The notes under the pieces: model-generated
Database searches by the model: none
What the model was told of the DNA's origin: nothing
What the model saw: the letters and a program-made list of their open reading frames with translations, nothing else
Made by a program: the position numbers and the translations under genes
Assembly (NCBI RefSeq): GCF_019059575.1
Contig: NW_024881583.1
Location: forward strand, 1,052,501-1,116,500
Length of the DNA stretch: 64,000 bases
DNA from: Amphibalanus amphitrite
Lineage: Eukaryota > Arthropoda > Thecostraca > Balanomorpha > Balanidae
Reading direction: 5' to 3'
Part shown: positions 7,235-54,936 of the stretch, piece by piece
How the letters are laid out: every line of letters begins with the position of its first letter
How positions within the stretch are numbered: the first letter of the stretch is position 1

Positions 7235-8066
7235 CCCGGCAGTTGCTGGGGTATTTCGCCACCCGCCGTTTGCTGAGGGGGGCGTTAAACGCCCCCAGCC
7301 GATAAATAGGCGCGGAGAAACGCACGAGGCGGCAAACGAAAGAACGCGACGAGACGCTTCAGATGAGTACTTTAAAAATGAGTTTTGAGGTCACAGGTCG
7401 GGTCAAGGTCAGGTCAAACACCTGAAATCGGGCTTTCAGTAGCATGGACTTCGGAACCTCGCAATGGGCGCCTCTCGTCATAAACTCTGTCAAAACGGTG
7501 CACAATCCTTCATATAAGGCCTACAAGAGTGTCAGATCCATGTAGGGGTCAGTCAAGCATAGGTCAGGGTCATGTTCAGGTCAACCAGGTAGGCACATAT
7601 CCCCGAAAATCTAAACTGATATTTGCAGCCTATGAGTGTGACATATGTTTTATGGGTAATTTTGGGCGTAGAACACGATGGTAACATTTATTTCATCATA
7701 GGTAATTTAAGAAATGCATGCATCATGGTCGTGAAGTAGTCACGAGAAAATGCCAAGATTCAGTTCAAGATTTTGGAAGATTCGAAAAGATAATGAAAAA
7801 TCGAAGATAGCCATTTGATTTTCCATGGTATTGGCGGTCTAAATGTCTATTCTGTGATTTTATATGATTTTTCGAACATATGCCGTTTTTGGTCGAAAAT
7901 TAAAAACATGACGTCACTAAGACCTCGATATCTCAAAAAATTTTCGACCGATTTTTGAAACTTTGTCACAATATACTTCAATCAATTCGCGCTGTTGTTA
8001 TGCTATAGCGCGGCGAAAAAGTGGGGGGCGTTTAACGCCCCCCCCCCCTCACCAGCAACTCGCGGG
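7235..8066. mobile_element. TTAA-flanked AGGTCA element, copy 1
   Basis: The element is bounded by TTAA at 7231-7234 and 8067-8070. Its ends are imperfect inverted repeats: it begins CCCGGCAGTTGCTGGGG, and the right end reads back as CCCGCGAGTTGCTGG. Inside each end is a palindromic hairpin of G6-CGTTTAACG-C6 type, at about 7277-7302 and 8020-8050. The interior at 7388-7590 contains many AGGTCA or GGGTCA half-sites, and there is a TGACGTCA core near 7910. No transposase frame is visible, so the copy is non-autonomous. A TTAA duplication is typical of the piggyBac and Kolobok superfamilies; assignment to either is inference. Confidence 0.8.
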
Positions 8067-8070
8067 TTAA

Positions 8071-9420
8071 ACGAAGCTAGCGGTTTTGTGCCAGCATTTT
8101 GTCATGAACAATTGCCTAAAATCGCATTCATGGGTCAGGTCAAGTCACCGACCTAAGTCATAATCGCAAGTTTTAGACCTCTGCATTATCCATGTAAATG
8201 TCGCAACTTGAAATTCTCTCAGTGCCAGGGAATCTTGAAACTTTCAGTAAATAGAAAGCTTCTGAATCCCTATAAATTGTTTCCATGACAGTCACCTGTC
8301 AAGCACCAGATCACGTGTCAGGTATGTCACGTAACCTTTTCATTATAACTCAGCAGGAGAAACACGGAAACTGCTTATTCAGCGCTGGTTTCCGCCGGCG
8401 TTGCTCTACTCCTACCTCATGCACGTGATGTCGCATTTTCTTGTTCATTTATTTTCATCTTTTATTTGTTCTTTTTATTTGCAATTTAGACCTTGCATGA
8501 CGTCATACTTTTATCGTGTCACTAAAGTCATTTGATGTCGTCCGATTTCTTTTACAAATTTTTGGTTTTCTACATATATGTTGGCCGAGTCGGTAGGGAC
8601 CCCTCTCGCAATTTCACCCCTAATGGAGCTAGAGGTTCGCGGAAACGAACGGGCGTGTGCGCCGTTACGACACGCAGCGATTGGTACCCGATCATCCGAT
8701 GTTAGGGTCTCAGGTCAACCGGTGACCTCTGAAGTCAAGTCAAGTGACCCAAGGCACGGGTTCAGTTTTTGGTAAAAAAGCTTGCCAAAAATGGTCGCAG
8801 AGCCGTGATTTTGACACAATCGTATTCTCCATGCTCAGGCGCGTCGAATGGTATACCTTTTGTTCGGATGAGGTCAACTCAAGGTGTTGACCTCGGGTCA
8901 AGGTCAGGTCAGCGCTCTTCAGGTCACGAGGTTGGTCGAACCTCGTACACCCACCTCGGCCGGCGAAGGTTAGCCGGCGAGTCGGGTAACGGCACCAACT
9001 AACTCTGTATTGTAACCTGCTAACATAAAGTTGTATGAAAAATGACCACCCCAACCAACTTCCTGACTGAGAGACTTTGACCTAACCTTGACCTGAGACC
9101 GACACCGGAATCAAACTTTGTCAGACAAAGTATACCATTTAACGCGGCCTAGTGCGACGAAGACGATGATGCCAGCGTCGAAAAGCATTGTACACTTCAT
9201 GTTGAGTCATACGACCATTGTTTACCATTGACTTCACCCTGATCTTCAGGTGTTTTACCTAGCCTCAGAAGTTACCGTTTGACCTCAGACCTATTATGCA
9301 GGCACAGGCGCTGCGTCTACTAACGATGCTCAACATTTTTTTTTTCGCGAAGCCCTAGCCTATAAAATAAGGGCAAAACGGTGAAAGAGGTCCTAACTCC
9401 CCCCCCCCCCCCCCCCACTC
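8071..9420. repeat. Diffuse AGGTCA-rich repeat block
   Basis: GGTCA and its complement TGACC recur here (about 8131-8160, 8290-8330, 8705-8755, 8868-8935, 9075-9100 and 9270-9290), often as pairs a few bases apart. A long C run at 9400-9417 closes the block. The composition resembles the interior of the TTAA elements, but I could not find matched terminal repeats with TTAA on both sides. It may be a decayed or rearranged family member. No gene was recognised. Confidence 0.5.
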
Positions 9421-10071
9421 GGCCAGACCGTGTGTAGATAACAAACAACATCGTAGCAAGCAGTAACAGCAGCAGCATGACTTACACAGATACTTTCGTA
9501 AAAAAAGCTCAGGCCATATGATCCCACTGTATTTCTCCACCAAATGAAGGTGCTGGGTCATCGACCAAGCTGCTTTATCTATAGGGATTAGGGATGAATG
9601 ATGATTCACATGGAGGTGATGCCCCGCCCTACAGCACATAGGAAGACTGTCAATAGATAAAGGTACGGCTTTCCAGAACTCACACACATTCACGGGTTAA
9701 TTACATTTTTTTTTATAGTTGCCAAAACCACGGTGACTATAAGCCACAACTAGCTGGCAGCCCAATCAGCCAGCCGAGCGCAATGCGAGCCTGTCTTTTG
9801 TCACCTTTTATCCCCTCCTCTTCTCCGTATTTCCCCTCCCTGCCCACTCCGCCTCCTATCGGAAATGAATCGACCTCTAAGCTCGTCCTGCACTTTGTTC
9901 TGGCGAAGTGCCGGCTGATTTTCTCCACAGTACCTACCGTCTGATTTTCTCCACAGTAGCGGCTGATTTGTCCCTGCGTCCGCTCAATCCAAGGCCCTCT
10001 AACCGCTCAATCGGGCTCTCAGTCGCAGATAGATACTTATATGAATAATGGATTCCAGGAGGGCAGTCCCA

Positions 10072-10127
10072 TGACGTCATTGGTTCTTTTGTGTATCGTT
10101 ACCATGGCAACCAGCCCACTGACGTCA
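10072..10127. promoter_or_regulatory. X-box flanked by two CRE sites, with inverted CCAAT
   Basis: A palindromic TGACGTCA (CRE, CREB/ATF class) lies at 10072-10079 and is followed directly by TTGG, giving an inverted CCAAT pentamer (ATTGG). GTTACCATGGCAAC at 10098-10111 is a full match to the RFX X-box consensus. A second TGACGTCA is at 10120-10127, and a partial X-box (GTTACCATAAC) follows at about 10139. The cluster lies roughly 1 kb upstream of the GPCR start codon on the same strand, so it could be an enhancer or upstream promoter for that gene. Binding and target are inferred. Confidence 0.55.
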
Positions 10128-17641: not shown

Positions 17642-20600
17642 TCACTTCTCCAGTAGGTAGAGCCGGTATATTCGCTCCTGTTGTTGATCGCTAAAGGTCG
17701 GCAGACAGTCCAGTCGACAGATCTCTGAGAATCCCTCGTCGGTGGTGGGCTCCTCGTATCGAGACCTGCGATAAACCGGTGTGGGGATTGGTGGTAAGCG
17801 TGACAGTTTGTTAGGTTACCGGGATTATCAGATGGTTTTACACAGTCACGCCCAATGGGAGATTGTACCATTGTGCGCTAGACATGGGAAAGAGCCACGG
17901 GAAGTAAGCCATCGGAGGATACCGAAGGGATTAGACCACAGGAGTGGGACGCCAGCCACCGAGCGACCGACACAAGGATACCGGGACGACAGGGTCGGCT
18001 GCACATTGCACAATGCTACAGAACGTTAGTATTCTCGTATTTAGCTTGCGACAAAAGTTAATTGTGTCCTCAATATATAACATAGCTATATCAATGATTT
18101 CGAGAGATGAATTAAAACCAAGTAACTCGTCGACATGTGGGCCTGCCTACGTCAGCCCAAATGCCAGTCGAGGTAATCAGCAAACGACTCATCAATCACA
18201 TTAACCGCAGCCGCATTGACGCAAATGCTGCTGTGCAGCTGGGCTTTTTACTTGCGCTACGTCAGATACGCTACCTCTAGGTTTTTCATCCCATTGACCA
18301 GCAAGCTTTTGGCAAAGTGCAACGGGCACGGCCTCCGCCCACCTGTTTCTGGACTACTTTACAGATATACCGCAGTCATTGAGATTCAGCACTATTCTCA
18401 AGTTCGGTCGAGGAGTCTGGGGTGGTTACCTTCTGAAGTCAGTTGCATTTAAACTGTTTCCATTTCTGAACCGTCCGAGGGGGTGCTTTAAGTAGGGATA
18501 CGGCCACAGCACTCACAGTTCACGAATGACGTCATGCTGTGAGAGGCCAAAAACACAGCGCAACCCAAGAACGAGAGAAATGACGTCACACAGCAGGCTA
18601 TAAAACACCCAGCGCCAACCAGGCACGGCAAGGACAATGCTCGTGCTAAGAGTGATGAGATGTGGGAGGGACCACGAACATTCACAAAACATCCACGTAA
18701 AGCAGAAACATCCAAGAAATCCAAGCGTGGCCATTAAAATGAATAAATAAAGCATGTTAACTTCAAGAGCTTACTTGAACATGTTGAAGATCATGTCGCT
18801 GACGTGCTGGTGAGACGAGTCAGTCAGCTCCCGGTACTGAAATGTAACAGACACGCCGTCAGATGCCACTGACGAGAAGACGCTCCTTTTGGCTTTGGGG
18901 AGCCCGCACGGGTTCAGTTATTACTTTGTTACGAGAAAACAGTTTCGAAACTCTAATGGACGTTAGAGTACCTAACTAACGACATCCGAAAACCCGGCCT
19001 GTGCTTAGGAAGCATGTACCTACCATCTAACAATCATAATTATGTAGCAAACGGGCATTGATGTGTAGTAAAATTAAAGAAAAAATGCGTGTTGTGTTGT
19101 TGCTGCAGCTGTCCAGCACCACGACCCACCTTGTTGTTGTGCCGCGCGTGCGCCAGTGTCGTGGTCATCAGCAGACAGCGGACGGGCACGCCGAGTCGGC
19201 GGCCCAGCTGCACGTACCGGGCGCGGCTCTCGCGGTCCCCGTTAGTGTTGTCCACCGCCGCGCTCTTGCCCTCCTGTCCGGTGTTGGGGGGGGGGGGGGG
19301 GGAGGGAGGAGGGCAAAGCAGTCAGAACGGGCGGCATATTCCATACCGTAGCTCCCAGCGGAATTAGCTGAATTCGTTAGTGCCGTCTGTGGCTGCCAGG
19401 GGATAAAACACTGCTTGCACAACCAGCGTTTGAAGCTTGCTCTACTTAATGAGCTTAAGCACAAAGCAGAATAAGTCGAGAGCTAGCTCACTCGGCCCGT
19501 GCCTCGAACAGAGCATCTATACCAGAAAAAAGCCCTTTGTGGGGCTGCAGGTCGGTAGATAGGCAGTGCTTCACCACAATCAACCCCTTCTTGGGCTACA
19601 GGCCGGTCCTATCTGAACCCGAGAGGGCACACAAAAACAGCAGTGCCTACCTTGATAGCTTGTTCGGCGACTTGGACGCACTTCTGCCACGATTTCAGCG
19701 TATCCCGGTTGGCAGCCACGTAACCAGCGGGCACCAGCTGGGTGGACGTCACGTGACTCTTGCCAGAGCCGGGCGGTCCGACCAGGACGACAATCTGCCG
19801 GCGGGAGGTCGGGTCGGTCACGATGATATAGCACATGATGTCACATCGGTGCACATAGTCACGCTAAACCTGGTGGAGGCTTGAAATATGCATTTAACCC
19901 GCGCCCTGGTGGGGTCTGTTTATAACGCGACCTGGTGGGGGGGGGGGCTACTTTTTGCCCCCCCCCCCTCATATCTCCGAAACTACTGGACGGATCCGCA
20001 AAATTCAAACGGCGTTCAAAAGGTATGTCAAATTTGTCGAGGGAAATCAAGTTTCATTGACCTCGGGGTCACCGATGACGTCACAGGTCAGGTCAAAGAT
20101 GAAATGTTTCACCGTTCACGGGTCTTCTAGGGAATGCGCTGTAACACCGAGGAAAACACATTTTGTCGAGAATCAGTTCAGCCATAGGGCGTCAGTTGCC
20201 TAGTACATATGTTGCTATTAGAGGTCACTGACAACATCAGGTCAGGTCACAGGTCAGGTCACCAAGGGTCACAGGTCAGGTCACATGAACTCAACTTTAC
20301 TAAGGTTGTGCTTTGCATGTTTTATGACCAATTTTTCATCTCCAACTCAAAAATGTTGGTTATAAGACAATGAGGTACGGCTTAGGTCACTTTCTGGTGA
20401 AGGTCAGGTCAAGGTCAGGTCAAAAAAGGTCAAATTTTAAAGTTGATAGTTTTGCATTAAACGGGTATTGATTCGATGCAGCTCGTCACGGGGAGTCTAA
20501 TGGTGGTCTTTGTTTTGCGCTACGGGGTCTAGAATTGCTAAAAATTGAGTTTGAAAATTTGGCGTCATAAATTTTGAAGTTTTTTTTCGCTATAACTTCG

Positions 20601-23600
20601 CCAAAAAAAAATTGGTATCGATCTCAAATTTGGTATGTGGATAGAAGGCGGTAAGGACTATCACATATATTCCGGTTTTTGCGAAATTCAAAAAACGTTT
20701 TGGATTTTTCGACTATTATATTCAAACAATCTATTTTTCTATTTTTGGGCGTCAAAATCAAAAAATTTCAAAAATCCGAGATACCAGTTTTATAGCCCTG
20801 TCAATTCTACAGCTTTTATGTCTTTATAATTTTTCTGTATTTGTAAAGCTATAGGCCTGACAGCTCTTCCCGCGAAACCCTTTTTTTGGGTCGAAAACGA
20901 CAGAACATGACGTCACTCTGACGTCATTTCCGGCCAACCTATCATAGTCTTTGGAAAAAATTTTGGTCACAATGTGTAAAATTGATGTCCGGGAGGGTAC
21001 TGAAAGTTTGGCGACGATCGGCGCAGCAGTTCTGTAGATATATCGAAAAGTCTGGAGGGGGGGAATAGCCCCCCCCCCCCCCACCAGGGCGCGGGTTAAT
21101 CATTGCAATCATCATTGCACCGAAAGGCGAAAAAAGTGAGACTGAAATGCTAACGCACAATTTAAATTGAATAGGGCAGACTTCATTAACGTTTCCTGTA
21201 CTATTGCATAAAATATGCCACAACGCACGCACACAAATTTATTACGTAGCTCTTCAAAGGCGTGTACTTTTTAATAAGCCATCCAAGGGAGTTCGACGAC
21301 TGAGGCATGATCCCTAAAGATCTTTGCGAACTGGTACCCGAAACTCGTCCCATTGCCACCACAGCACGACAGAAGAAATCCAAAAACGCGACCGGCCGTG
21401 AAGAACGACCACCAGCACATCAGCTTAACCTTCTGCCGCTTTTGCCGACAACAAACTTCAGCGCACGCCACGCTAAATTATTCAACACACATGCAGTTTT
21501 TAGATGTTTATGAAGCCCTGAGCTCAGAAAGCAGCAAGGAGGCCTCAGAAGTCAGAAAGCTGCAGCGTGGAATGAGCCGAGATATGTGCAACATTAAATA
21601 TATGAGCTTAAGTTTTTGTAATAAATGTTTGAATCTAGTTACAGTCAAGGTGAGAGGCACTGAAAATGTAGCGGCATAACATTCATGCCTTTAATCAATT
21701 CTGTAAAAACGAGAAGCGAGGGCCTCTTTGCCTCTTCCTCTTCGCCCTTCCCCTTTTCTCCTGGAGACATCTCTTCCCAACACGCTGGGATCACGCTGAC
21801 CTCACCCCCTTCTCAGTTCTCGCTGCGCTGACCTCCCCCCGACCAGGCCGTGCTGACCTCTAACCTCTGACCCCACCTCCTTCTCAGCCCGCGCTGCGCT
21901 GACCTCACCTCCCCCCCCCCCCCCCGACCAGGCTGTGCTGATCTCTGACATCTGACCTCACCTCCTTCTCAGCCCGCGCTGCGCTGACCTCCCCCCCCCC
22001 CCCCCCCGACCAGGCTGTGCTGACCTCTGACCTCACCTCCTTCTCAGTCCGCGCTGCGCTGACCGGGACCGCCGTTCGGGCGCCATCCACCGCCGCCCGA
22101 GGGTCGAACTCCGGCAGCTGGTACTTGTTGGTGGCCGGCTGACCTGGCGGTGCAGGTTTACACGTGGTTAGTAAGTGCCACAGCAGTCCACTCGGACCCA
22201 CCAGGGACGGTCAGACACAGTCAGTGACAGTGAGAATATGGTGATACCGGCAACTGACTCGTGCCATGCACGCTGAGCATAACGGGAAATTAGCATATCT
22301 TCCCGAAAAAAGAAACAGACAGAGTAGATACCAGACACGGGGATAATGCCAAGTAAACTAATCACAGTACTACACGATCCAAAGTAAGCTGCAGATAATG
22401 AATTACAATGTACTAATTCAACATGTTCAAATACCTAATTCAACATTTATTTGTTCATTGTCACTAGCACCAATGACTCACCGAGGAACAGCTCTTCAGG
22501 CGTGTAGAACCGCAGTCCCACATTGATGGCGAACAGACGATCGGAGCACGAGAAGTCCTTTTTCTTCTTGGGTGCCCAGCCCTCTCGGCGGCCGGCCGCG
22601 TCTCCACAGTAGAAGCTCTCCTTCATGTTAATGGTACGCGATCCGTTTTCCTGCGTGACGATCGGAACGATCACGTCTGTGAACTCCACAACTGCAGCGA
22701 TGAGCATTTCACAATCTGAAGTTTCTTTCCATAATTGACCCATCACCTGGAGACAACATCAAGCCTATTTACTCATTTAAATTTAGAAAAAAAAAACGCG
22801 ATGCTTGTATTATCTCGAATAACCGAGTTAGCATACTTGTCAACCCAATTTTATAACGATGAAAAAACCTGTAACAAAACTAGTCAGTGGAAATTACCGT
22901 TTTGATCAGGTACTCCCACATCCCGGGCCGCGGTTTTCGGTACCAGCGGTCGCCGGGCGAGATGAGACACTGCACCGGCACACCCAGCCGACCGGTGATG
23001 TTCTGCAGCTTGTGTCGCAGGTCCTCCGGCAGCAGCTTCCGCTTGCTGATGCCGAGCTGTCGGAGAGGAAGGCACGCCGTCAGGTGGCTTGGAGTCGAGA
23101 GGGGGGAGGGCAGGCGACTGCGAGATACGGTATGCGCGTGACCGTACCACAGCGCAGTTGTAAGATTATCCGCCGGATAATCTGTTGGACAGCAACATGC
23201 ATTCAGTTAAACGTACTTCGATGACAAACAATGATATCGTCAAAAAAAAAAAAAACGAAAGGGCATACATCCCGGTTCCCTGAAAAGGTCAAAGAACTTC
23301 TAAAATTTATTCACCTGATTTGTTAGAAAAACAATCTTGAAGCCGCTTTTGCTGAGTTCTTTCAGCTTTCTGGGCACATCTGGGTAGATGATCTGCCAGT
23401 CGTCCCTGTCTTTGGCGAATGTTTTGCCCGACTTGGTCGTTATTATCGTTCCGTCCAGATCGAACGCCGCTATCTGAAACAGGTAAAACCGCCCACGTTT
23501 ATAAAAGTGCTAGAATCCAACAGAAAGGGAAACTGGAGAGCCTGTCCCAACACAACATGCCTTTTTGTTTGCTTGTTTATTGGAGCTTTGGGGCGCGTCC

Positions 23601-32966: not shown

Positions 32967-32970
32967 TATG

Positions 32971-37400: not shown

Positions 37401-40400
37401 TGTCCCGCTCAGTGTCCTGCCCCGGTCCGGGCCCGCTCGACTTACCGAGTCTGCGGAAGGTGGGCGCCGGGCCCGCGGCGGGCGCCGACGTCTCTGTCGA
37501 CTCCGGCTGCTTCTCCGGGGTCCGCTCCGGCTGAGTCTCCGGCTCCGGGGCGGCTGGGGGCGCCTGGACGGGCGAGCGGCGCCGCTCCCTGCCCCGACCA
37601 CGCTCCGAGTCACTGCTGGAGGCCGACCTGCCGGCAGGGGAGAGAGGGAGTGGTCAGCCGGCGACAGACGGCTGAGGCGGCTCGGTAGGCGAATCAGTGC
37701 TCAAAACAGATCGTTATGATAGAGTGACCAGAGCAAAACGCAAACGATGGGCGTATTTGAGCAGTGGTTTAAACGCTAGACATGTGGAGAAGTCTGTTAA
37801 CTGATTAAAAAATGTATATACAAATCATTGGATACCTAATATTACCTACACTTTATCAGCTGATCCGTAATCGAGCATTGAAGTCGTACATACCTGTCAC
37901 GGCGGCTCCTCTTCCTTGGACTCCCCTCGCGCCTCGAGACTGGTGCCGTGTCATCAGACTTGCTGACAGACTCTCTGTGAAAAGAGTGAATGGGACAGGT
38001 GCTGAAATGGTCTTGAGCTGTTAAAGCATACCGCTAATTAGTCACTTGTCAGTCAAGTAAGTAACCCTCAATCTTGTAGAAAAATGGAGATCATCTTCTA
38101 ATTACGACACATAGTGGAACACGATGACCGAGTCAAAACTTAGTAAAATCGGCACCGCGTCGTGAAAGGGAGAAAGAAACACGCCCAACTGTAGGAATGA
38201 GTCAGTCGCCCGTCACTTACTTTTTGTCTCCGGTGCTGGAGTTCCGTTTCAGTTTGAGTTTTCGCTTCTCTTCCTTCTTGAGAGGCTGTGCTTCTTCTTG
38301 TTCCCGTGAGGATTCCTTCTTAGAAGTATCCTCTGCACCCTGTTCCGGCTTCTTTTTGTCACCGTCAGCCTCAGAAGCGGCCGCTTTAGTGACAGCTTCG
38401 CCGTCGTTCTGTGAAAGGAAACGCCGGAAATCGCGGTCATCGAAAGTCGGCAACATGTGCGAAATGCTCTGGAAGAAGGCACCTTTGTAGCATTAATACA
38501 ATTTTATCAGCTAGAATAAGGCAAAATACCGAAGGTCGTTGTAAGCTTTTCATTTAGAAATTAACGTTTGCGAAATTAACATGTCACGAAATACTCTGCT
38601 ACATCACAAGTCTGATAGACCAACCGCTGTAAGTCCGCTCACAGTACCGGCATCACACCCCGCCGCAGTAAACACTCACCTGAGCCGGCGCGTCGGAGCT
38701 CCAGAAGGCGGCGGCTTCCCTCCACTCTCCGTCCTCCAGAACCATCTCCTCCGCCGACGGAGGCCGCTCGCCGGAGTCGCGCCGCCCGCGCCGCTCGGAG
38801 GAGTCGTGACGGGAACGGCGACCATCGGACGGCGCGCCCGAGCCCGACCGGTGCCGCTCGCGCTCCTTACGATCGCCCGAGTCGTGCTTCTTACGATCGC
38901 CCGAGTCGTGCTTCTTACGATCGCCCGAGTCGTGCTTCTTACGATCGCCCGAGTCGTGCTCCTTACGATCGCCCGAGTCGTGCTTCTTACGATCACCCTT
39001 CTCGCGCTCACGCTCCTTGCGCTCGTCCACCTCGCGCTCTTTACGATCGCTTGAATCGCGCTTCTTATGGTCCACTGGCTCCCGCGCATGTTCTTTGCTG
39101 TCGCCCGCCTCTCGCTCACGCTCTTTACGATCGCCTGATTCGCGCTCACGCTCCTTACTATCTTCCGCCTCACCTTCGCGCTCCTTATGATCGGCTGAAT
39201 CGCCCTTCTTACGCTCGCCTGAATCGTGTTTCTTACGCTCGCCTTTCTCCCGCTCGCGCTCTTTGCGCTCGTCCGTATTGCGTTCTTTACGATCGCTTGA
39301 ATCGCGCTTCTTACGCTCGCCTGAATCACGCTCTTTACGATCACCTGCCTCGTGCTCCTTACGATCACCTGATCCACGCCTCTTACGATCACCTGAGTCA
39401 CGCCTCTTACGATCACCTGATTCGCGCTTTGAATCGCGATCCGGAGAGTGAGGTTCCTTGGATGCGGGAGACTTGTCCCGCTTTGCCTCTGAGGAATCAG
39501 CAGGCTCGTTGTCATCATGCTTGTCGTTGCTAGACGACTTTTTGGAATCAGTTCTGTCGTCCGAGCTTTTCTCTGTGTGCTTTCCTTCAGACTTGTCGGA
39601 ACGCTTATCATCGGCGTCGATCGACTTCGATCGGCGGTGTCCTTTCCTGTCCGATTCCTTATCGTCCGCCTTCTTTCTCTCGGCCTCTTTTCGTTCCCTC
39701 TTCTCTTCCTCCTTCCTCCGCTCTGCCTCTTTACGCTCCTTCCGCTCGTGCTCTTTCCTCTCTTCCTTCTTGGCTTTCCTTTCAGATTCTTTTTCGCTTT
39801 CCTTCTTCCGCTCAGCTTCCTTCCTCTCCCTTCGTTCGGCCTCTTTCCTTTCCTTCCTCTGAGCCTCCTTTTCTTCGTCCCTCTTTCGTTCCATTTCTTT
39901 TCGTTCTTTCCTTTCGGCCTCTTTCTTTTCTTCCTCTCTTTTTCTTTGTCTTCGTTCCTCTTCCTTACGCTCTCTTCTGGCCTCTTTGTCTTCTTCGCGG
40001 TGACGGTCACTCTCCTTTTTCTTTTCAGACACGTCCTTGGCTTTCTTCTCTCGTTTATCTGTCTCTTCCACTTCCTTCAGTTTCGGTTCCTTAACCTTAG
40101 TTTCATCTTTCTCCTCTTTGCCCTTTCCTTTCCGCTCAGCCTCAGTGTTGTCTTCTTTATCAGACTCCTTCTCTTCCTCAGTCTCTTTGGTTTTACCCTC
40201 ATCCTTCTTTGGTTCAGCTTCTTTTCGGGTTTCTTTTACTTCCTTCTCCGTCTGTTCCTCCTCACCCCCGGCCGTCTTGTCTCCGTCGGTCACCGCCTGG
40301 GGTCCCTCCCCGGTCCCGTCCGGCTCAGCGGGCGGCACCTCAGTGTCGCTGTCGCCGCTCTGCTGGCTGACCGAGACGCGGCCGCCCGAGCGCCGACTGC

Positions 40401-43400
40401 GGCGCCGCTCCGGCGTCTCCTCGCCGTCGGCAGAGTCCACCGAGGCCGTGTGGCGCCGCGAGCGGCGGCTCGGCGCCGGAGACGGAGGCGCCTGCAAGGA
40501 AAACAGCGTCACACGGGAGCGACATCATTCGACCCAGTTACGTGACGAAACATACACGTGTTTCACTGCAAACGGTTTACAATGATTAAAATAAAGGCCC
40601 ACCTCGGTTAGGCCCACCTTCTATATAAAACATAAATGACGTAAAATGATCGGCAGACGTACCTTCTCCTCCGATTCTGGTTTCTTAAACGACTGGTCGC
40701 GGGACTCGGGCGAATCTCCTGAAATGAAAGAAAATGAATGAGATAACGATACACAACTTATAGGTTAAAGCGCCATGTTGATATTAATGCGTGAAAATGA
40801 TGACAAAGTGACAATCATAAACAAGATGAATAGCGAACAGACATGGACATTGCTAGTCAGGTGGCGTCATCCAGCAGCAGTATGGAATACAGCGTCCATC
40901 CAGCTAAGGACAGACGGCGACAATATCACTAAGTCCACGATCTGACAACCACCACCAGTCAGCTATCTCCGGCGCAGTAGCCGGAGCGAGTGCCCGCATC
41001 CCTACCTTTGGCGGCCGGCGTCGACTCCTGCTCCTCCTCTCCCTGGCTGTCGGCGCTCTCCGACTGCGACTGCTCACCTGCGAGACACGACCAGCGCGGT
41101 CACAGCTCGGCGAGCCACCACCCGCACACGGCGGCCGGACAAAACATACAGCCGGCCCTACTCACAACCGTACAGTGGCGGCACTGCTAACTGACTACAC
41201 AAGCCAGGATTAATCATAAGAATAATTAGCTTCAACAGCAGTTAGAAATGAATTGTACAACTTTTAAGCCGATTTGGAAGAAGTTATAAGCAAGGAGTCC
41301 ATGCAAGCATATTCAACCAACGTACGAAATTCTTAACCTTCGCCCCAGTGGGGGGGGGGGGATATGTTACCACCCTGTCGCGTTTTTCGCATGTGAATAA
41401 AAAACCGCGGCGCGTAGCGCCGCGCCGCTTGGGGTAGCTTTTCACACATCAATTTTGGACAATGTGTGAAATTGTTGACCCCAGGTCAGGTCAGGTCAGG
41501 TCACCAGGTCAAGTTAACTGACCAATCCTAAAAAAAGTTTGCAATCATGTCCAATCTGCAGTGTTTGTCAGAAAGGTTTTAAACTTGGTGGATTGCATGA
41601 TGTAATGGGCGCCTACAATTTGTATATCTCGGATTCTTATATCCGTGACCTAAGGTCAGGTCAGTGGCGTGACCTTACCATTATAAGTCAATGGAGAAAT
41701 ATGAAAATGCCTCTAGATCCGTGTGTACGCATAGGAACAGTCCAAATATTTCAGAATCACAATGATTTGGACCACCCGTGACGACCAAGGTGTCGTTTTT
41801 GCTGATAGCCTCTAGAAAGGCCATCCGAGGTCATTTGAGGCTACAAACAGATGTTTGCCAATAACTCTCGATTGGAAAGAGATAGAACGCTGGGGATGGT
41901 CTCATTGTGTTTGTCTTGCCGAGACGCATCGACTGATATGCAACATGACCTTTTCCGGTCAGGTCATGACCTTGACCTGAGGTCAAATTTTCAAGTTGAC
42001 CTTGCAAGGTCAAATTATAGTTCATTCGATGCGTCTCGGCGAGAGGAACACGATTCTGGCAATAGAAATGTCGTGGCTTTTTGGAGTCGAAAGTTATTGT
42101 CGAAAAACACTTTTCGTAAAAACAGCTATTTTTTAGTTTTTGCCCTCTGGAGGCTAAACCGTTGACCTGAGGTCATTTTTGATGATCTTATCGAAAGAAG
42201 AGTTCAAGAGCTATCGATTGCATTTTAATGCGTTTTTAACTATCATAGTTCCTGAGATAAATGCATGTTTTTGGAAAAATGTAATGACATTTGGCAAATT
42301 TTGACCTTTGATGACCTCCAGTGACCCCAATATTGCTCTAAGATTAAAAATGACCGAAATACTTTCAAACGTACGCATTGAGAGCTATCGATTGCTTTTT
42401 ACCGCGTCTTTCTAGCCCTCTTAGTTTTTGAGTTAGAGGTGGGTGGTAACATATGCCCCCCCCCCCCCCACACACACACTAGGGCGAAGTTGGCGGAGAC
42501 CGCCACTGGGGAGCGGGTTAAGGTCCTATAACCGATGAATCGCATACCCAAGATGATTTGATGAGCATGCGATGAGAACAACAAGCACAAGACGATACAT
42601 TTTTGAACGAGATGACACGTCTTAAAACCCAACACTCAAGCTACCATGAAACAAAAGTTGGAAAACTTGAACCCACGGCACCAAATACACCCGCACCGCA
42701 CGTTATAGACAAATCAAGCACCGCATGCATTTTTTTAGCACAAACATGTACAATTTTAGAAAACAGCCGCAGACCCCGCCCGCGGCAGTTTCCCAGTTTC
42801 TGTGCACGGATGTTTTCGCGGGCCGGTAACGGCGGGTGCTGGTTAGAGAAGCCGGCTAGGCCCACCTTCCACCTTGCGTCTGGCCTCACGCTGTTGGATG
42901 AGCTGCGCCTGCTGCTTCTCCAGGTACTGCTTGATGAAGTCGTTGCCAGCCAGCGCGCCCTCGTTCCTCATCTGTGCGCAGAGCCATGCCGAGGTAAGCG
43001 AAAGGAACGGCCGACTGCGAGCCATGCAGGTTTGTTAGGGCGTGCTTAAGGAACATTCATTGTTCACTTAAGGCCGCCGTCCACTATGCGGAGCGCTTGC
43101 GGTCCGTACGGAATTTAACACAGAGCCCTATGGGCGCATGCGGTTTCCGTCCGGAGTCCGTCAGGAATGTCTCCGCATCCGGACAGCAAACTGAGGGCTC
43201 ACGCACACTCGATATCACTTGTTACAAAAAGAAAATATGGCCATTGCCTAGCATCACAAGATGGTGCCATGCCAAGGAAATAAATTTTATCTATAGTCAA
43301 AATTGATGTGAAAATGATCAATAACATGCCAAAAATTGTATTGGTTCTTTAGTTTACCAAAGAGAAACAAAAGAGACAAGCTTTCGACAACACTGTCATC

Positions 43401-46400
43401 GTCTGAGTTTTTGAAATTCCTTTACACACTTCACAACATACAAAAACATATACGCACGCTACAATGATGGAAAACATTCCTCCGTTTGTATGTAGGTAGA
43501 TGTCGAGATCCAGATCACAAAATGCTTATTTCAATGTGCCTACAACGTCACATGTCACAAGTTCTACATAATCAAGCGCTCATACAAACAGATATCACAC
43601 TATGCAAGTAACAAAAAATGAATGCTACTTTCTGGTTCGTAACCTACCAAAAGTCACAACAGCCTAAACAATTGGCCAGGACTGTGTGAAGGTATTCAAG
43701 TTTGGGTTGATATCACGGATTTTCATAGATTCATCAATTTTATTGTCAGCCACGTCACGGTTTCTGCTCAAAATATCTATACGAAAGTTGTTGTTCATTT
43801 CCTTGTGACTAAGTGTCGGGTGTCTATCTAAGGCATGCTCACCAAGTCCGGTACCTAGCCTTCTTAGTCTGGCGTCAGAAAGGTGCTCGTTAAATCTCTC
43901 ACGAACCGGTCGCGACGTTTCTCCGATATAAATATAAGGTTTGTCCTGACATGTTTTACAAGTGATTTTATATACGACATTTTTTATGTGGCATTTCCCC
44001 TGAAGACCGTTCGGGCACGTGTGACACCGGGTTTTGCCGCGGCAAAGCGGAGGCTGAAGGGCAGATCTGACCAGTTTGCTTTTCACCGTGGGTCCACTCT
44101 GCCAAGCCACCCTAAGGTTAAGCTTAGATGCCCTGATAATGCCATTGACTCGATGACACACTGTTTCATTGACGTAAGGGAGCCTCATGTAAGTCATCTG
44201 CCCTGATTGAGCGTTTTTCCTATCATGTTGTGCCTTTCGTTTTTTGTTGTTTTTAAAAGTTCGGTCAATGATGTGCTCAGGATATCCGTTTTCTAGAAAG
44301 AGGTGCTTGATTTTGTCCAGGCTGCGTTGCACAGCAGATGGGGATACCTGGACCGCTCGTTTCGTTTGGGAAGTGAGGACACCTAGCTTAGTTTTCATGG
44401 GATGAGCCGATTCATAATTTAAGATGATTGGGGCAGTCATGGGTTTGATGAACAGTTCTGTTGTGTAAGTGCCATTGGGATGAACCGTAACCACAGTGTC
44501 AAGAAACCAAACCGTAACCATAGTGTCATGCCAACCATCCAAACGATTAAAAATTTTATCTACTTTGTCTTGAAAGAGTAGAAATTCAATCTTAAATTTC
44601 CAATTGAAAACTCAAAGACGGGCGACGGCCCATGTCCGCATCCATTCCGTCTGCGTTCTCCGCACACAGTTCAACACGTTGTACTTTGGTACTTCGTCTC
44701 TGCGACAACCACTTCGGATGTCGATGATTTCGACTTGAATAAATCTAGCTCAAGGGAGGTCACGCGCGACTTGCATAACGTGACTTCCGAGTCTGGACTG
44801 AATATAATTACGCCAATTATCAGCGATATGTGTCCACACAACATGGATGCGGTTCGCACACGATTTCCGTACGGACCGGATGCGCCCATAGGGTTCTGTG
44901 TTAAAGGAAAAGGGCCACCTTCGTGAAATATGAAGATATCGTTGTTTTTCATTTTGACATTATTTTTCATTTTCTTTTTAAAACTGGTGCCAGAAGTGCA
45001 CAATTCGCGAAAAAGTATTTAAAACTATTTAACATATTGGTACTATGTTGATACTCTCTACGGCACCTACTGTATGATGGCATAGCGATGACGTCACACT
45101 CAAGCCAATCAGCGTTCAGAAGACAGACTCGTCGGATTGTGTCAGATAAGCTGATTGGTTAAAGCTGAGCTGATTGGTAAAAAAACCAAAGCCTCGCCGC
45201 GGGTGGCTGTATTACAGGGTAAGGACGCATTCCTGGGATTAGGACGCATTCCTCTTTTAAAATTGCCGATACCTACGAATGGAAGCCGAAATCGGCCGTA
45301 AGGATATAGACTGGTGGGTTTTCGGACACGGGCTACAAGATGGCTATCTCAGTTTCAATCCCCATGTTAAAGGTGGCCCTTTTCCTTAAAATTCCGTACG
45401 GACCGCAAGCATTCCGCACAGTGGACGGCGGCCTTTACAGTTTACACAATATCTTATCATAATTGTTTCCATTTCACACCAGCTTACAAAAGTGGACATG
45501 AGCGTCACGGTTAGCTGATGAAAACAGCTGAAAGGTAAACTGGCACACCTGTTTTTTTCTTTTTTTCTTGTCAAACTCTCCCGAGTCTAATTACAGCACC
45601 AGTTTCATTTGAAAAAGCAGTGTGCGAACCACACCAGCTATGCAGCGAAGGCAGCTGGGCTCGTGTTCAGTCAATCGTGGATCGCGCGGACAGAGGACGG
45701 AATGGAGCCGGCCAGGCTATGAGCGGCTGAGAGCTCCTCCGCGAACGTAGGGGACCGCTTACCGTTACCCAACCGCTATAAGTCGACCCAGCGCGGCTGG
45801 TCGGACACTTAAACAATGTTAGATTGGGTTGATGGATCATCAGGGAGCGTGACAAGCTAGGAATGCCCTAAAGTTGTTACTGACGATGCTAGTAATCTGT
45901 TGCTGCTGCAATAACGACCTGCGCTGATGTGTTTCAGGTGAAGTTAATAGCTGCTGGTATCCCTTACCCGCGACTGGCCAAGCAAAGGTCTATTATCATC
46001 AGGTTGGCTTGAAGCCCTTTACTGTGCAAGTTCCTCAGCCAATGCCCCTAGATTACCGATGGAATTTATCAGTGGTTGAAGTGGAGAGCACTGTTATTGT
46101 GAGAAACCAGCAGCCTGATCCATCCCGGCCGTGAGATGCTTATCATAGCCTTGACCAATCGAAATATGTCTGCTGCATCACCCCATCCAGTAAATCTTGA
46201 AGTCAGCAACTTTTGTGTTTACATGGCAGCAGGGCTGTCAGAGACAATATGTTTATAACACTGAACTCTATAATGTGGAAGGCGCTTCGGCCGCCAGATG
46301 GTGTCCAACGGTGCCGCCATGTTGCGCAGACCAGGAAGCGGCCGCCGCCTGTGTTGGAGAATAGGGAATTCGGGACCTCGATTTACGTTTGCGGTCGCTG

Positions 46401-49400
46401 CATCCGTTACGTTCAAGCTATGTGGACACGGAACCCGGCATCTTTCGCAGAATTGAGTGGAGAACAAGATGAAATCCTAAAAAATCCTCAGATACAAGGA
46501 ACTAATACGTTAAACCCTTATAAGTCAATGGGGAAATATGAAAATTGCTATTTTGGCGCCGAGAATGATCTGAAACTATCTCAAGCATATAGAATCATGA
46601 TTTCATGCACTCTTTGCAAGGTTCTATGCTTCATATTTGCATTGTTGCCCTTGCGTGACGTCATTTGTGACGCCACAAAGGTCACAATTTTTCTTCAATA
46701 ACTCCCGATCAAATTGAGCTAGCGAGTCGGGAAAGCCACCAATGGACTCAGGAAGACCTGCCGAATCGAATGATATGCGACATGACCTCTTTCGACTAAC
46801 TTCGTGACCTGGGGGTGCTGACCTGACCTTGACCTGAGGTCAACACCCTAAGTTGACCTGACCCGAACAAAAAGTATATCACTCGATGCGCCTGAGCTAG
46901 GGGAACACGATGATGCCAAAATCGCAGCTCTACGGCCATTTTTGGCGAAGTTATTTACCAAAAACCGAGCCCGTGCCTTAGGTCACTTGACCTGACCTCA
47001 GAGGTCACCGGATGACCTGAGACCTTTAAAGCGGATTCCTACCAGTCGCTCTGGATTGTACTCTGCCTCATACGACCACTTTACCGCTAAATTCTAGTTG
47101 AATTAGCGGCGCATTAGCGAGGTGGGTTCAATCAACCCTCTCGGCCGGGGCAAATGTAAAAAGACGATGGTCCGGCGAGTGAATTTGAGCAATTCTGATG
47201 ATTTGATCGTGTTCCCCACTCAATTCTGCGTAAGATGCCGGGTTTCGTATCTACGTACCTTGAACGTAACGGATGCGGCGGCCGCAAACGTAAATCGAGG
47301 TCCCGAATTCCCTATTCCTCAACACAGGCGGCGGCCGGTTCCTGGTCTGCGCAATATGGCCGCCACCGTTAGACACTTCGGCCAATAGGGTTGAAGCGGC
47401 AGTGCTCCCCTGTGGTTTATAACAGGCAACTCCCCATAACTATGCGGACTACCCTAAAATTTTATCTTTGAGTGAGCACTGAACATCCTGGGCAATGGAT
47501 TTATATGTCGTTATTGAGGCAGTGGTACTTCTGCACACGTGCGTGTTCAGGGCCCAGGGGCAGCTTCTGCATCTCCATGGCTGGGCCGATTGCACTCAAT
47601 GTTATAGAACTAGGATTGAAATGGAATGGTGGCTAGCAATCAGTTGGGGGTCTCATGACACACTGAAACAGCGTTTACTATTGCACTTGCTGGTTTGTGG
47701 CCCAAAGGCATTTTATTGATTTATTTATGGTGTGACATATGAAATGTCTTAAGTATCACTTGCAACAGGCTGCATGAGCACAAAAGGTACACAAAGCAGA
47801 CAATTTGTGTGGCATAATGCATAAAAGATTGACAGCAGTTGATTGGTAGCATGAAGCTTTTGAATTACCTCTATACTTACACTGATGTTTGGGGCCTGGT
47901 CATCTTCACTGCTGGCATTCCGTTCTCGCTCTTTTTCGAGGTGGACATACTGCAAAAAGAAGACATGGTATAAGGGCTTGAAATACACATATTGACATAG
48001 CAAGGGCTAGACCACTGCAATGCACACTCACAGTGGTGTAGTGTGGTGAAGGCAGCTGATTGAGAAGAAATGGTACAAAGCCTATAGGTTCATGCTGAAC
48101 TCAGTAAGTCAAGGTACCTTCTATGCTGAACAACTGCTTCAGTGCAAGTAAAGCTTTGTCCACAAAATTATATACAACTTGCAAGAGATGACTGTCAAAC
48201 AGTGAGCAAGTCCTAGTTAAAGTTCATATATTGGGGACTGGGGAGCATTCACAGTGGGTATTCTGCACCCAGGTTACACATAGTACAGAAGCAATGCAAG
48301 ATACTAAGACAGTGCAGGATCAGTGTACCAAAATTTGTCATTTTGGGTGGAAAACAACATCCAAATAAAAATCATTTTTGACTCTGACCTTCAACTTTTT
48401 CGACTATTTTCCTCTCCCAATTCTACAAAGAAAAACATTTACATAAATTATATGTAGATCGCGTTTTACATTCTACAGCCGACCACGATTGTATATAGAT
48501 TCATACTTTTGATTATATTCAACTCTTTTTGGGCCTTTCGTGAACGTTACTTTTCCACTCTCACCCATGATTTGGTGATCAATTTTCCCCTCTGACACCC
48601 AGGCCAAAATATAATTTTGGGACACTGTGCAGGATAGTACAAACAATGCATGAGACAGGTCGTGGTGTAAGTTAAGAGGGAAAAGAGACGGGTTAAGCAT
48701 CAGACAGTCACAGCAATTCCTTTTTTGCAGTTTTTCTCAGCACATCACCCTTGATTTACTATAAAAATACAAGCAATAAGCTTGTCACCCTAGCTGGTCT
48801 GCCTCCACACACTTGCATGTGACAAGAAATGGCTTTGCAGCCTGGCTTATGTCTTCAATTGGGTGGAATCTGAAAAACAGGGCACCTGAGGCGATCTAAT
48901 CAATGCTCTTGAAATTCGCGTGTGCAAATCACATGACAATAAGTGTGTTGAAGGCAGCAAAGGGGGAGAATTTCTTTGCTGTCACATGACTTAGCGTGCA
49001 TTCTACGTCCAGATCAGGGATAATTATCCGGGATCACCAGTAAGTATTTGGTATTGCAGGGACCATTGATGCAAGTATTCACATTGTTAGACTGCTTTTG
49101 CTCCCTAATGACTCTTTTTCTCATTGTCATGTCCATTGGGCAAGACGTCGGCCTAAAAAAACCAATGATCCCAGGTGATCCCAGAAATTATCCCTGGTTA
49201 TCCGCATGCTGAATACCCAAAATATGCCCTGCGGTGCCGTTTTCAGATTCCACCTACAATTGGTCGATAGTCGAAGGAGATGGCACAGATTCATACCAAT
49301 GCAAGGGAATGCAAAGAAGTGGGAAAACGCTGTTAATTCTATTCCTCTGCTGCACTTAAAATCAATGAATGAAATGTAAGAAGAAAATAAACAGCGAAAA

Positions 49401-49584: not shown

Positions 49585-49644
49585 TTTCCACTATATAGAC
49601 ACCGGCCCACTCGCGCAACGTGCACACACAAAACACGCTCTACC

Positions 49645-50072: not shown

Positions 50073-50079
50073 CTCTACC

Positions 50080-51033: not shown

Positions 51034-51037
51034 TTAA

Positions 51038-51937
51038 CCCTCGCCCGTATGGGGGGGGGGGGGGTCGAACGGACCCCCCCCCCCTCGGTTTTTCACGAAT
51101 AACTCGCGTAAAAAGCGGCCGATCGCGACGAAACTTTCAGTTCCCTCGAATTGATCAATTTTACACCTACCCTAAAATTTCATGACCCTGACCCAAATGA
51201 CCTTTGACCTGTGACCTACTTTTCGAGACCATGTTTGGCCGGAATCGCGATTCGGCGTATGTCGGCTCGCATTAGCGGCGCGTTTGCAGTCTTTTCAGTT
51301 TTCGTGGTTTCAAGCGTTCAAACATCTGAAATGATGTTGGTCCCATGCATTAGGGTGGGTGTCAAGGTCACCTGAAGGTCAGGTTAGATCATTGACCTTT
51401 GATGACCTCGGTTCACTTTTTCGAGTTTTACATGTTTCTAGGCCAGTTTTTGGAGCTGATTTCGAATTTAACAACCATATGAACGTTAACGAAGTAGTTT
51501 TGGTGCCTTCGTAACATGTTACGAAGCTGTCAGAGGCGGTTGACACCTACTACGAATACCCGGCAGGACTCCTACTGGTTGACCTGATCTGACCTGACCC
51601 GACCTGGTCTAAATGCTTAAAGACATCATCTGTGATCAAAACTAACATGATATTCGTGATCAGCACCCCGAAAAACCCCATAGCAGCCACACTTTACGAC
51701 ATTCTAACAGGTCCCGCCTTTCCCGACTTTTGGGTCATTGACCTGACCTGGAAGGTCAACCAATGACCTAGGACCTTAAATTGGTTATCTTCGGCTTCCT
51801 CTCGTCACGGGCAGCACGCTCGTTTTTTTCCGCGAAGCTCTAGCTCGATCAGGGGCGAAACGGCAAGGGGGGGGTCCAACGCCCCCCCCCCATCCCTTAT
51901 ACGTTCGCGGCTGGAAAAACACCAATACGGGCGAGGG
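51038..51937. mobile_element. TTAA-flanked AGGTCA element, copy 4
   Basis: TTAA at 51034-51037 and 51938-51941 bounds 900 bp with perfect 13-bp ends, CCCTCGCCCGTAT and its complement. G-run/C-run hairpins lie just inside both ends (51050-51082 and 51868-51891). The interior carries TGACC/GGTCA sites near 51190-51220, 51362-51410, 51580-51605 and 51735-51775. The sequence next to the left hairpin, ending AAACTTTCAG, is also found next to the hairpin of the copy at 52902, linking subfamilies with different tips. No transposase frame. Confidence 0.85.
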
Positions 51938-51941
51938 TTAA

Positions 51942-52420: not shown

Positions 52421-52424
52421 GATA

Positions 52425-54936
52425 TTTCATTTCATTTCATTTATTCACCATATCAGCCACGGGACATGCCCATTTACGGCCAAAGTCACAGCACAATAAA
52501 AATACATGAACCATACACAGTCTTCATAAAATTTTCCCTTTTGCTAAAGTACAAGATAAAATAAGGAATAAATTTAAAAATAAACAAATGGGAGCACTAA
52601 ACATGCTAAAATCGTTTCAAGCGCTATGAGAACAAGCACTCTTAACATACCTTAAAATACAAGACCTGACGCGAGATAAAGAGTCATGAAATATGTCGAC
52701 CTCATCACATCGCTGCAAAAACTCGTTCATCACCCTGGGAAGCCTACAAAACATGCCCATTTTCACCGTTCCTACCCTTCCGTGGGGCACCGCAAGAAAA
52801 GTACGCAGCCGGGTGATGCGGGGCGGAACGGCCAAGCCGAAGTGCGACCGCAAGAAGCTGGAGTCGATATTATTTTTCAAGATGCGTGTCGAGAACATTA
52901 ACCTTCCAGGCGGTGGGGGGGGGGCATTTTTTTGCCCCCCCTTTAGTTTTTTCGATATATCTCGAGAACCGCTGCGCCGATCGTCACCAAACTTTCAGTA
53001 CCCTCCCGGGAGCAGCTAGCGCACATGGTGACCAAAAAATTTTCCAAAGGCTATGATAGGTTGGCCGCTAATGACGTCAGAGTGACGTCATTTTTGCCAT
53101 TTTCGACCCAAAAAAATGTTTCGCGGGAAGAGCTGTCAGGCCTACAGCTTTAGAGATACAGAAAAATGTTTCAGACATAAAAGGTGTGGAATGAAGAGGG
53201 CTACAAAACTGCTATTTCGGTTTTTCAAATTTTTTGGATTTTGACCCCCAAAAATCAAAAAATAATTTTTTTGAATAAAATAGCCTAAAAATCCAAAAAG
53301 TTTTTTGAATTTCGAAAAAACCGGAATATATGTGATAGCCCCTACCGCCTTCTATCTACATACCAAATTTGAGATCGATACCTCTTTTTTTGGCCAAGTT
53401 ATAGCGAAAAAACTGTTCAAAATTGATGACGTCAAATTTTCAAACTCAATTTTTAGCAATTCTAGACCTCGTAGCGCAAAACAAAGACCACCATTAGACT
53501 CCCGTGACGAGCTGCATCGAATCGATACCCATTTTATGCAAAAATATCAACTTTGAAATTTGACCTTTTTTGACCTGACCTTGACCTGACCTCCACCAGA
53601 AAGTGACCTAAACCGTACCTGATGGTCTTATAACCAACACCATTGAGTTGGAAATGAAAATCTGGCCATAAAACATGCATCGCATAACCTTAGTAAAGTT
53701 GGGCTCATGTGGTGACCCTTGGTGACCTTTGGTGACCTGACCTGTGACCTGACGTGGTATGACCAGTGACCTCTAATAGCAACATATGTACTAAACAACT
53801 GACGCCTTATCGCTGATTTTCGACAAAATGCGTTTTACTCGGTGTTATAGCGCTTTCCCTAGAAGCCCCGTGAACGGTGAAACATTTTATCTTTGACCTG
53901 ACCTGTGACGTCATCGGTGACCCCGAGGTCAATGAAATTTGGTTTCCCTCGACAAATTTGACAGGGCTATCGAACGCCGTTTGAATTTTCCGGATCCGTC
54001 CAGTAGTTTCGGAGATACGGGGGGGGGGCAAAAAAGTGCCCCCCCCCCCCCCCCCCCACCGCGCGGAAGGTGGCTGGTAGGCCCACCGCCTGCCGGGTTA
54101 AGTCGTGTTGAGTTCGCCTTACATTCAGTGGACAGAGAGAAAAGTGAGAAAGCAGGCGGCTATAGTCGAGAGTTTGAGGCGCGCCAGAAACGTGGGTCGA
54201 CAACCAGATAACAAATTTGTGTTGTACGCGCTCTATTCGTTCTGTATGGGACTTCGCCGCCCCACCCCATACCACGCTACAATACTCCAGTATGGACCTC
54301 ACATTAGCACAATATGCAGCGATCAAAGCCGTTCGGTTAAATTTGACCTGTCGTCCAGACTGAAAAGAACGTATCATCACACCGAGTGCCCTATTGGCTT
54401 TCGAGACAATGCTATCGACATGCAACTGAAACGTGAGCTTACTATCAATGATGACGCCAAGATCTCTGATGAATTCTACATGTTCTAGAGCCCTGTCATG
54501 GATACAATACACACTCTTCATGGGCGCACGCCGCAGAGAGATGGTAAATGATCGACATTTATCAGCGTTTAATTGCAGGCGCCACGTCGCCGACCAGTGT
54601 TCCAGTCGCTTGAGGTCAGCACGCAGGCTATCAACATCACTGGCAGATCCTACACAGTGGAATAGCTTGACATCATCAGCGTAGAGCAAACAATTTGTGG
54701 ATATGTGCAGCGGTAAATCATTTACAAACAGGGCAAACAGCAGTGGAGAGAGCTGACTACCTTCAGGAGTACCGGACGTCACACGTATCCAATCAGATGT
54801 GCGACCATTCATCACTACTCGCGGGCGTCTATCTGACAAAAATGAACGGATCCAATCCAGTGCTCTATCTTTAAAATGGAAGCCATTTTCAAGTTTGTGA
54901 AGTAAAAGTCTATGATCTACACTCTGATATCCGGGA
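52425..54936 (-). mobile_element. Non-LTR retrotransposon fragment, split by a TTAA element
   Basis: The reverse transcriptase frame runs from about 54925 to 54098 and continues from 52901 to 52617. It contains SGTPEGSQLSPLLFALFVND and the catalytic LLYADDVKLF, then the conserved C-terminal domain (SILEYCSVVWGG, LLSHFSLCPLNVRR). The stop is at about 52617, followed by a 3' tail of repeated TTTCAT (minus strand ATGAAA) at 52425-52440. These features fit jockey/CR1-like elements. The 5' end, including endonuclease and early RT motifs, is missing, as usual for truncated insertions. The gene is interrupted once, at a TTAA, by the element at 52902-54097; apart from that the frame is open. Confidence 0.87.
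52902..54097. mobile_element. TTAA-flanked AGGTCA element, copy 5, inside a reverse transcriptase gene
   Basis: TTAA at 52898-52901 and 54098-54101 bounds 1196 bp. The left tip CCTTCCAGGCGGTGGGG and right tip CCCGGCAGGCGGTGGG are imperfect inverted repeats. G/C-run hairpins lie inside both ends. It is the reverse-orientation relative of the copy at 19898-21095, sharing nearly the whole interior, including TGACGTCA cores near 53070-53095 and 53909, and AGGTCA arrays at 53565-53600 and 53710-53760. Removing the element with one TTAA leaves the surrounding reverse transcriptase frame continuous, which proves the boundaries. Confidence 0.93.

Follow-up and report, generated by a model that had tools for sequence, protein, structure and literature searches.

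Five transposable elements without a gene of their own, E1 to E5, lie in a 64,000-bp stretch of the genome of Amphibalanus amphitrite, hereafter the window (contig NW_024881583.1, positions 1,052,501 to 1,116,500; C86:1052501-1116500 in the working genome of 807,550,619 bases and 2,644 contigs). They are read here, with a probability of roughly 0.8, as non-autonomous piggyBac elements of several families, which would be moved by a transposase from gene-bearing elements; the core of this enzyme would bind the terminal tip and an inner copy of it, and its cysteine-rich domain (CRD) a palindrome of one G-run and one C-run. The superfamily and the architecture are known ones; new are the G/C-run palindromes and the scale on which they occur. 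Also unusual is that the tips of E2 and E5 differ despite 90% identical bodies.

Borders, unequal ends and genome-wide copies

The original prediction of five TTAA-bounded elements proved exact in all five intervals (832, 1198, 1181, 900 and 1196 bp for E1 to E5), each of which is flanked by TTAA on both sides (Table 1), so that a TTAA duplication is seen at 5 of 5 elements. The 237 TTAA sites of the window form only seven pairs that are 100 to 4000 bp apart and match at 11 or more of 15 tip positions, and five of these are E1 to E5; eleven shifted site sets, used as control, gave 0 to 3 pairs each. The two tips of one element are identical at 13 (E1), 15 (E2), 12 (E3), 14 (E4) and 12 (E5) of 15 positions. 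E5 is inserted in a long interspersed nuclear element (LINE), whose reverse transcriptase open reading frame (ORF) is the single ORF overlapping it. When the E5 flanks are fused over one TTAA, the reverse transcriptase frame is uninterrupted, and E5 is therefore a clean TTAA insertion. Seamless excision is a further trait of the piggyBac superfamily, and the sites observed here are insertion sites only. No stop-to-stop ORF of at least 130 amino acids is contained in E1 to E5, in line with their description as non-autonomous elements without a transposase.

The ends had been described as mirrored, which does not hold: every one of the five elements is asymmetric, with a short and a long end. 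The short end consists of the tip followed by the G-run palindrome, whereas the long end carries the tip, a repeat of the short-end tip shifted inward by 26 bp (E2, E4) or 27 bp (E1, E3, E5), and then the palindrome. Shuffling gave p values for the inner copies of 0.0136, 0.0004, 0 of 5000, 0.077 and 0.0002 (E1 to E5; identities in Table 1). Summed over the five elements, the match to the short-end tip reached 57 of 75 positions in the offset bin 26/27, 38 and 50 in the bins 25/26 and 27/28, and 20 to 33 in the remainder, the bins being maxima over two adjacent offsets and hence overlapping. In six more G-run long ends, chosen by eye, the best copy was found at +27 in all six (one of them weak, 9/15, p 0.315), and in the fetched E2 copies it was found at +26 in 30 of 30. 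The tips vary from element to element, yet they agree inside each element, as does the inner copy in most cases.

A G/C structure had been expected within about 60 bp of each end. A G-run of at least six is present between bp 14 and 62 at all ten ends, while the C-run partner after it is found at eight; E3 has none. The short-end G-runs in the window begin at bp 14 to 19, several of these ends having a loop rich in A/T. Folding of the subterminal regions, which had been suggested as a check, bore out a single-strand structure only in part, with z < -2 against dinucleotide shuffles at 4 of 10 ends and not at the other six. A further subterminal motif, CCGATCG..AC.AAACTTTCAGT.CCCTC, was recognised by eye in E2 (20989-21060), E5 (52950-53015) and E4 (51100-51160).

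The interiors are rich in GGTCA as predicted, with 54 AGGTCA/TGACCT hexamers inside E1 to E5 against 2.3 expected. This enrichment is not exclusive to the five elements, since the remainder of the window likewise exceeds expectation (65 against 27). Arrays of this kind are also found in a repeat termed element X (46290-47385), at 8694-8940 and in a gene-bearing element on contig C44 (10 AGGTCA/TGACCT and 4 TGACGTCA). No function was found for the arrays, which would be dispensable for movement.

A genome search with E2 yielded 40 long matches at 90–100% identity, the window copy among them (40 scored of 5,914 first-look candidates). TTAA is present at both borders in 26 of the 30 best copies fetched, so that the prediction withstood the check named beforehand, in which copies lacking TTAA at both borders would have counted against it. 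The exceptions are L005, L009 (TCAA one side), L010 and L017 (CTAG both sides); L005 and L010 have altered short tips. The flanks are common to L008 and L024 and to L013 and L014, hence not independent, which leaves 24 of 28 sites with TTAA. The 30 best-scoring copies differ from their own majority by 1.3–4.6% substitutions, a figure for the best copies and not for the age of the whole family. The E2 tip pattern (19 bases plus TTAA) has 1,510 + 1,515 = 3,025 exact matches genome-wide, with 0 and 0 in the control. A 3.4-kb candidate with E2 tips (C4:876300) turned out to be an E2 copy nested in an E2 copy with a further insert, in which no transposase ORF was seen.

The predicted wide spread of such elements was borne out by a genome-wide census of their ends. 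The short-end pattern (TTAACC, 9–14 bases, G7, 4–14 bases, C6) was found 16,334 times on the forward strand (backward control 0), and the long-end pattern, which differs in having 34–46 bases before the G-run, 20,323 times (backward control 3). With a wrong spacing of 60–72 bases, 217 forward sites were obtained (backward control 10), which places the short ends at 75 times and the long ends at 94 times the spacing control, the number of permitted spacings being 6 (short), 13 (long) and 13 (control). The G/C structures thus adjoin TTAACC at many thousands of sites, and their absence from most copies, the second finding named beforehand as counting against the prediction, was not indicated, the counts covering structure-bearing ends only. 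Ends like that of E1, with the G-run from bp 19, are overlooked by the short-end pattern. The reverse-strand counts (46,836, 63,682 and 621) were left unused as apparently inflated, with several end points per site. Among the places listed on contig C1, six of seven minus-strand short ends pair with a plus-strand long end 1,009–1,197 bp away; the sole minus-strand long end listed had no partner listed. If the forward counts are doubled, the genome may hold some 30,000–40,000 elements, roughly 5% of its length at about 1.1 kb each.

The idea of one single family did not stand. Judged by alignment, E1 to E5 belong to several families, and E2 and E5 are the sole pair in the window alike along the whole length (90% identity over aligned bases). 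Their tips differ, the short tip of one matching the long tip of the other at 8 and 9 of 15 positions.

Two short piggyBac ends stand back to back on one common TTAA at L074, and at L023, L025 and L029 the flank beside the TTAA also resembles the tip of another element; TTAA sites at the borders of elements may serve a second time as insertion targets.

Gene-bearing relatives and the proposed mode of end recognition

A profile search with PF13843 (DDE_Tnp_1_7, the piggyBac DDE domain) gave 116 scored matches, all above the cut-off (232 candidates). Eight loci were fetched in addition to the 30 best-scoring ones, and two of them, L063 (C44) and L064 (C1173), show the end plan of E1 to E5 at the gene's own end. 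The C44 element measures 3,975 bp from TTAA to TTAA and has tips alike at 12 of 16 positions and G/C palindromes at both ends. Its long end comprises the tip, an inner copy at +27 (11/15) and a G9/C10 pair, its short end the tip and a G12/C10 pair. The element harbors a 667-aa stop-to-stop ORF with a DDE_Tnp_1_7 match of 236 bits, whose nearest solved relative is the piggyBac transposase of Trichoplusia ni (E 1.2e-73), followed by piggyBat (7.3e-31). Aspartates of the C44 protein align with what we take to be the three catalytic aspartates of T. ni piggyBac. A motif resembling the subterminal CCGATCG..AC.AAACTTTCAGT.CCCTC was noted by eye in this element as well. The long end of C1173 is the same as that of C44 and accompanies a 590-aa ORF (DDE_Tnp_1_7, 231 bits), at the terminus of which the Cys/His pattern indicates a cysteine-rich stretch. 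Both ends were found at C527 and the short end only at C42; C171 has a G/C pair, and the parts of it that were retrieved contain no TTAA tip.

Three further loci (C257, C431 and C33) have equal DDE scores of 205.3 bits, an open frame of 666 aa in the profile search and one identical long end in three different flanks, 1.6 kb 3' of the DDE match. The tip of this long end is 14/15 identical to that of E2, and its inner copy, at +27, is 13/15 identical to the short tip of E3. The region 3' of the gene in C257 is 71% identical to the right half of E3 (450 of 630 columns). In C44 as in C257, the long end follows the gene on its 3' side, presumably as in T. ni piggyBac, which we also take to have a CCC tip sequence like the tips here. 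A search for a gene-bearing copy, as originally proposed, thus recovered the same end plan and a close match to the E2 tip.

E1 to E5 are considered non-autonomous piggyBac elements and not Kolobok elements because piggyBac genes lie within elements with such ends, and a piggyBac-type enzyme most likely moves the group. The source of this transposase would be the gene-bearing elements elsewhere in the genome. This enzyme would bind, with its core, a motif of some 15 bp at either tip, cut at TTAA and insert at TTAA. At the long end, the core might also bind the inner tip copy, so that a second dimer of the enzyme could be loaded there, in the manner suggested for T. ni piggyBac; such a dimer would be needed under this mechanism. 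A dimer of the cysteine-rich C-terminal domains would occupy the paired G-run/C-run palindrome. This assignment of domains to sites follows the layouts of T. ni piggyBac and piggyBat and the position of the G-runs, on which grounds a role of the subterminal structures in recognition by the transposase is plausible, as first suggested.

Several observations weigh against this reading. The piggyBac superfamily is characterized by terminal inverted repeats of 12–19 bp with a CC[C/T]T terminal motif (PMC2872659). All ten ends of E1 to E5 start with CC and more precisely with CC[C/T], but the fourth base is T at only four ends and G at six. The inner copy of E4 is the weakest (9/15, p 0.077) and not convincing taken alone, as chance matches at short ends reach 6–9/15. 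In none of the 30 best-scoring piggyBac loci was a gene recognised that is itself flanked by G-run ends; in 18 of them the ends identified are of the CCCATTAG, CCCTTTACC or CCCAGATC type, in 12 no end pair was detected within 1.5 kb, and the piggyBac of L050 is nested in an outer E2-like element. The cysteine-rich stretch of C44 sits in a different frame from the main ORF and the ORF of C1173 starts later, hence no transposase copy is confirmed as fully intact. Only the long end was seen at C257 and C431, a short end being absent from the stretches fetched upstream. The exact tips of E1, E4 and E5 were not encountered on any gene-bearing element. Two last points concern the palindrome: E3 lacks the C-run partner at both ends, and the length of the G-run varies among copies within the one family of E2, which is odd for a site read by its sequence.

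A tentative variant, which we consider rather unlikely, treats the ends as exchangeable cassettes. The body would persist through a joint change of all three transposase sites (both tips and the inner copy), and a body such as that shared by E2 and E5 could in this way switch to another transposase. The palindrome would be read by its complementarity or structure and not by its sequence, for which reason pure G/C runs of drifting length would suffice. Selection for a new transposase would produce such a concerted change of three sites, but so would gene conversion between the ends.

That the G/C-run pairs are by-products of replication or repair in otherwise normal piggyBac elements, with only tip and inner copy of importance, is unlikely. 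The variable run lengths across E2 copies would fit, as would E3, which retains tips and TTAA without the C arm, and the other piggyBac families of this genome with identified ends, which have no G-runs there. However, the pair adjoins TTAACC at two fixed distances, far in excess of the spacing control on the forward strand, and is found at both ends of the transposase-bearing C44 element. L067 and L069, which represent another piggyBac class, show a mixed-sequence palindrome at the corresponding site and therefore support the position of the palindrome, not the G-runs.

A role of the runs as a structural feature of the DNA (a hairpin, a G-quadruplex or an i-motif), instead of as a duplex site for the CRD, appears quite improbable. 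Free run length with complementarity of the paired runs maintained, as seen in the E2 copies, would agree with such a role, as would the four ends that fold with z < -2; against it stand the six remaining ends, which miss this value. Both explanations compete with the palindrome part of the piggyBac reading only. Kolobok-type elements, the other superfamily named in the original prediction on account of TTAA duplications, share this duplication with E1 to E5 and are nevertheless hardly credible as their source, since Kolobok ends are 5'-RR/YY-3' (PMC9587614, PMC6004289) while all ten ends here start with CC, and since the gene-bearing elements that share the end plan encode a piggyBac transposase (the search covered PF13843; Kolobok transposases were not searched for).

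Among gene-bearing loci with other tips, a possible but weak inner copy at +30 was found in L041, and no convincing one in seven others. A structure at position 4474 of L070 resembles a long end without TTAA.

Feature coordinates and other repeats

Table 1. Elements E1 to E5, their end features and the interrupted LINE, in positions of the window
Feature	Position	Strand	Remarks
E1	7235..8066	+	long end left, short end right; TTAA 7231-7234, 8067-8070
E1 inner tip copy	7262..7276	+	offset +27, 11/15; then G-run 7277-7282, C-run 7292-7296
E1 short-end G/C-run palindrome	8023..8048	-	
E2	19898..21095	+	long end left, short end right; TTAA 19894-19897, 21096-21099
E2 inner tip copy	19924..19938	+	offset +26, 12/15; then G-run 19937-19947, C-run 19958-19968
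E2 short-end G/C-run palindrome	21057..21082	-	
E3	41337..42517	+	short end left, long end right; TTAA 41333-41336, 42518-42521
E3 inner tip copy	42476..42490	-	offset +27, 12/15; minus-strand G-run 42456-42469, no C partner
E4	51038..51937	+	short end left, long end right; TTAA 51034-51037, 51938-51941
E4 short-end G14/C11 palindrome	51051..51084	+	fold z -4.12, lower than at any other end
E4 inner tip copy	51897..51911	-	offset +26, 9/15
C-terminal part of LINE ORF beyond E5	52617..52897	-	end judged by eye
E5	52902..54097	-	short end left, long end right; TTAA 52898-52901, 54098-54101; in LINE reverse transcriptase ORF
E5 inner tip copy	54056..54070	-	offset +27, 13/15 to short-end tip; G-run 54039-54057, C partner 54019-54028
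LINE reverse transcriptase ORF (RVT_1) hit by E5	54102..54938	-	listed ORF 53967-54938 continues into E5

Two further TTAA-bounded stretches were set aside. The pair at 43115-44904 (14/15) lies within a repeat that has its own inverted repeat (43070-43116/45389-45435) and holds an ORF with a GIY-YIG domain (43664-44611), which might be the remnant of what we would call a Penelope-like element. The stretch at 59952-61046, with AGGTAG tips (12/15) and a perfect 87-bp inverted repeat (60503-60589/60654-60740), was excluded because it starts with AGG and is Kolobok-like. A possible Kolobok-like miniature inverted-repeat transposable element (MITE) is located at 44901-45391, with TTAAAGGAAAAGGGCCACC at one end and its near-inverse, by eye, at the other.

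The GGTCA-rich element X has inverted repeats of about 184 bp (46313-46496/47180-47363) and no TTAA border by eye. Similar stretches occur in the piggyBac loci L032, L041 and L045 and near C257; the piggyBac of L041 is inserted at a TTAA of a copy of X, for which the X of the window represents the empty site. The GGTCA-rich stretch at 8694-8940, beside E1, is 85% complementary to part of element X and probably a decayed relative of it. At 61590-63728, a 33-bp repeat array contains a 504-bp duplication, for which 99% identity over 300 bp was reported.

Comparison with known systems

piggyBac is a widely used gene-delivery tool. In the papers cited here, the discrimination of its ends was worked out on T. 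ni piggyBac (PMC7351741) and on piggyBat (PMC11707139, PMC13405395). The genome studied here offers many thousands of natural ends with several tip families, a constant offset of 26–27 bp and an unequal build of the two ends, alongside long transposase ORFs. From these, a recognition code linking the tip and the inner copy to the transposase could be derived, and natural variants could serve to test whether asymmetry is required.

In T. ni piggyBac, bp 34–63 of the right end (RE) are almost identical to bp 7–35 of the left end (LE), a palindrome at LE bp 17–33 is the binding site of a CRD dimer, and with the native enzyme in cells only the unequal pair LE35/RE63 both excises and integrates (PMC7351741). 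The elements described here share with it the TTAA site, an end module repeated further in at one end (27–28 bp in T. ni piggyBac, 26–27 bp here), a palindrome just inside the tip module and, in the gene-bearing relatives, a DDE_Tnp_1_7 transposase with a cysteine-rich C-terminus. In contrast, the palindrome of T. ni piggyBac is a 19-bp mixed sequence at bp 17–33, whereas a longer G/C-run pair from bp 14–19 is present here. The G/C pairs are centred further inward and drift in run length, which is a real difference. Moreover, the tip sequences differ, and the copies in the window have no gene. No earlier description of G-run palindromes at piggyBac ends was found in the literature, a weak claim judged on titles and the openings of abstracts.

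In piggyBat of Myotis lucifugus, the core motif is followed 3 bp later by an imperfect, A/T-centred palindrome bound by the C-terminal domains (PMC11707139, PMC13405395). A core motif with a palindrome of A/T-rich centre and unequal ends are thus found in both, while piggyBat differs in the 44-bp spacing of its motifs and in having three copies at one end. The C44 transposase is closer to T. ni piggyBac than to piggyBat.

Kolobok and T2-MITE elements share the TTAA duplication and differ in their RR tips and transposase (PMC9587614, PMC6004289). The CMITE elements of Acropora resemble E1 to E5 in TTAA, piggyBac-like tips and the presence of several families with interiors more alike than the tips (PMC2872659), a feature that the pair E2 and E5 alone displays here. 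Unlike the elements of 0.8–1.2 kb described here, CMITEs measure about 100 bp, their number being estimated at about 1,600 copies, and no G-run palindrome is described in the available part of their account (PMC2872659). Among crustaceans, Pokey and the mPok MITEs of Daphnia are, as here, members of the piggyBac superfamily with MITE derivatives (PMC3849761, PMC4912750).

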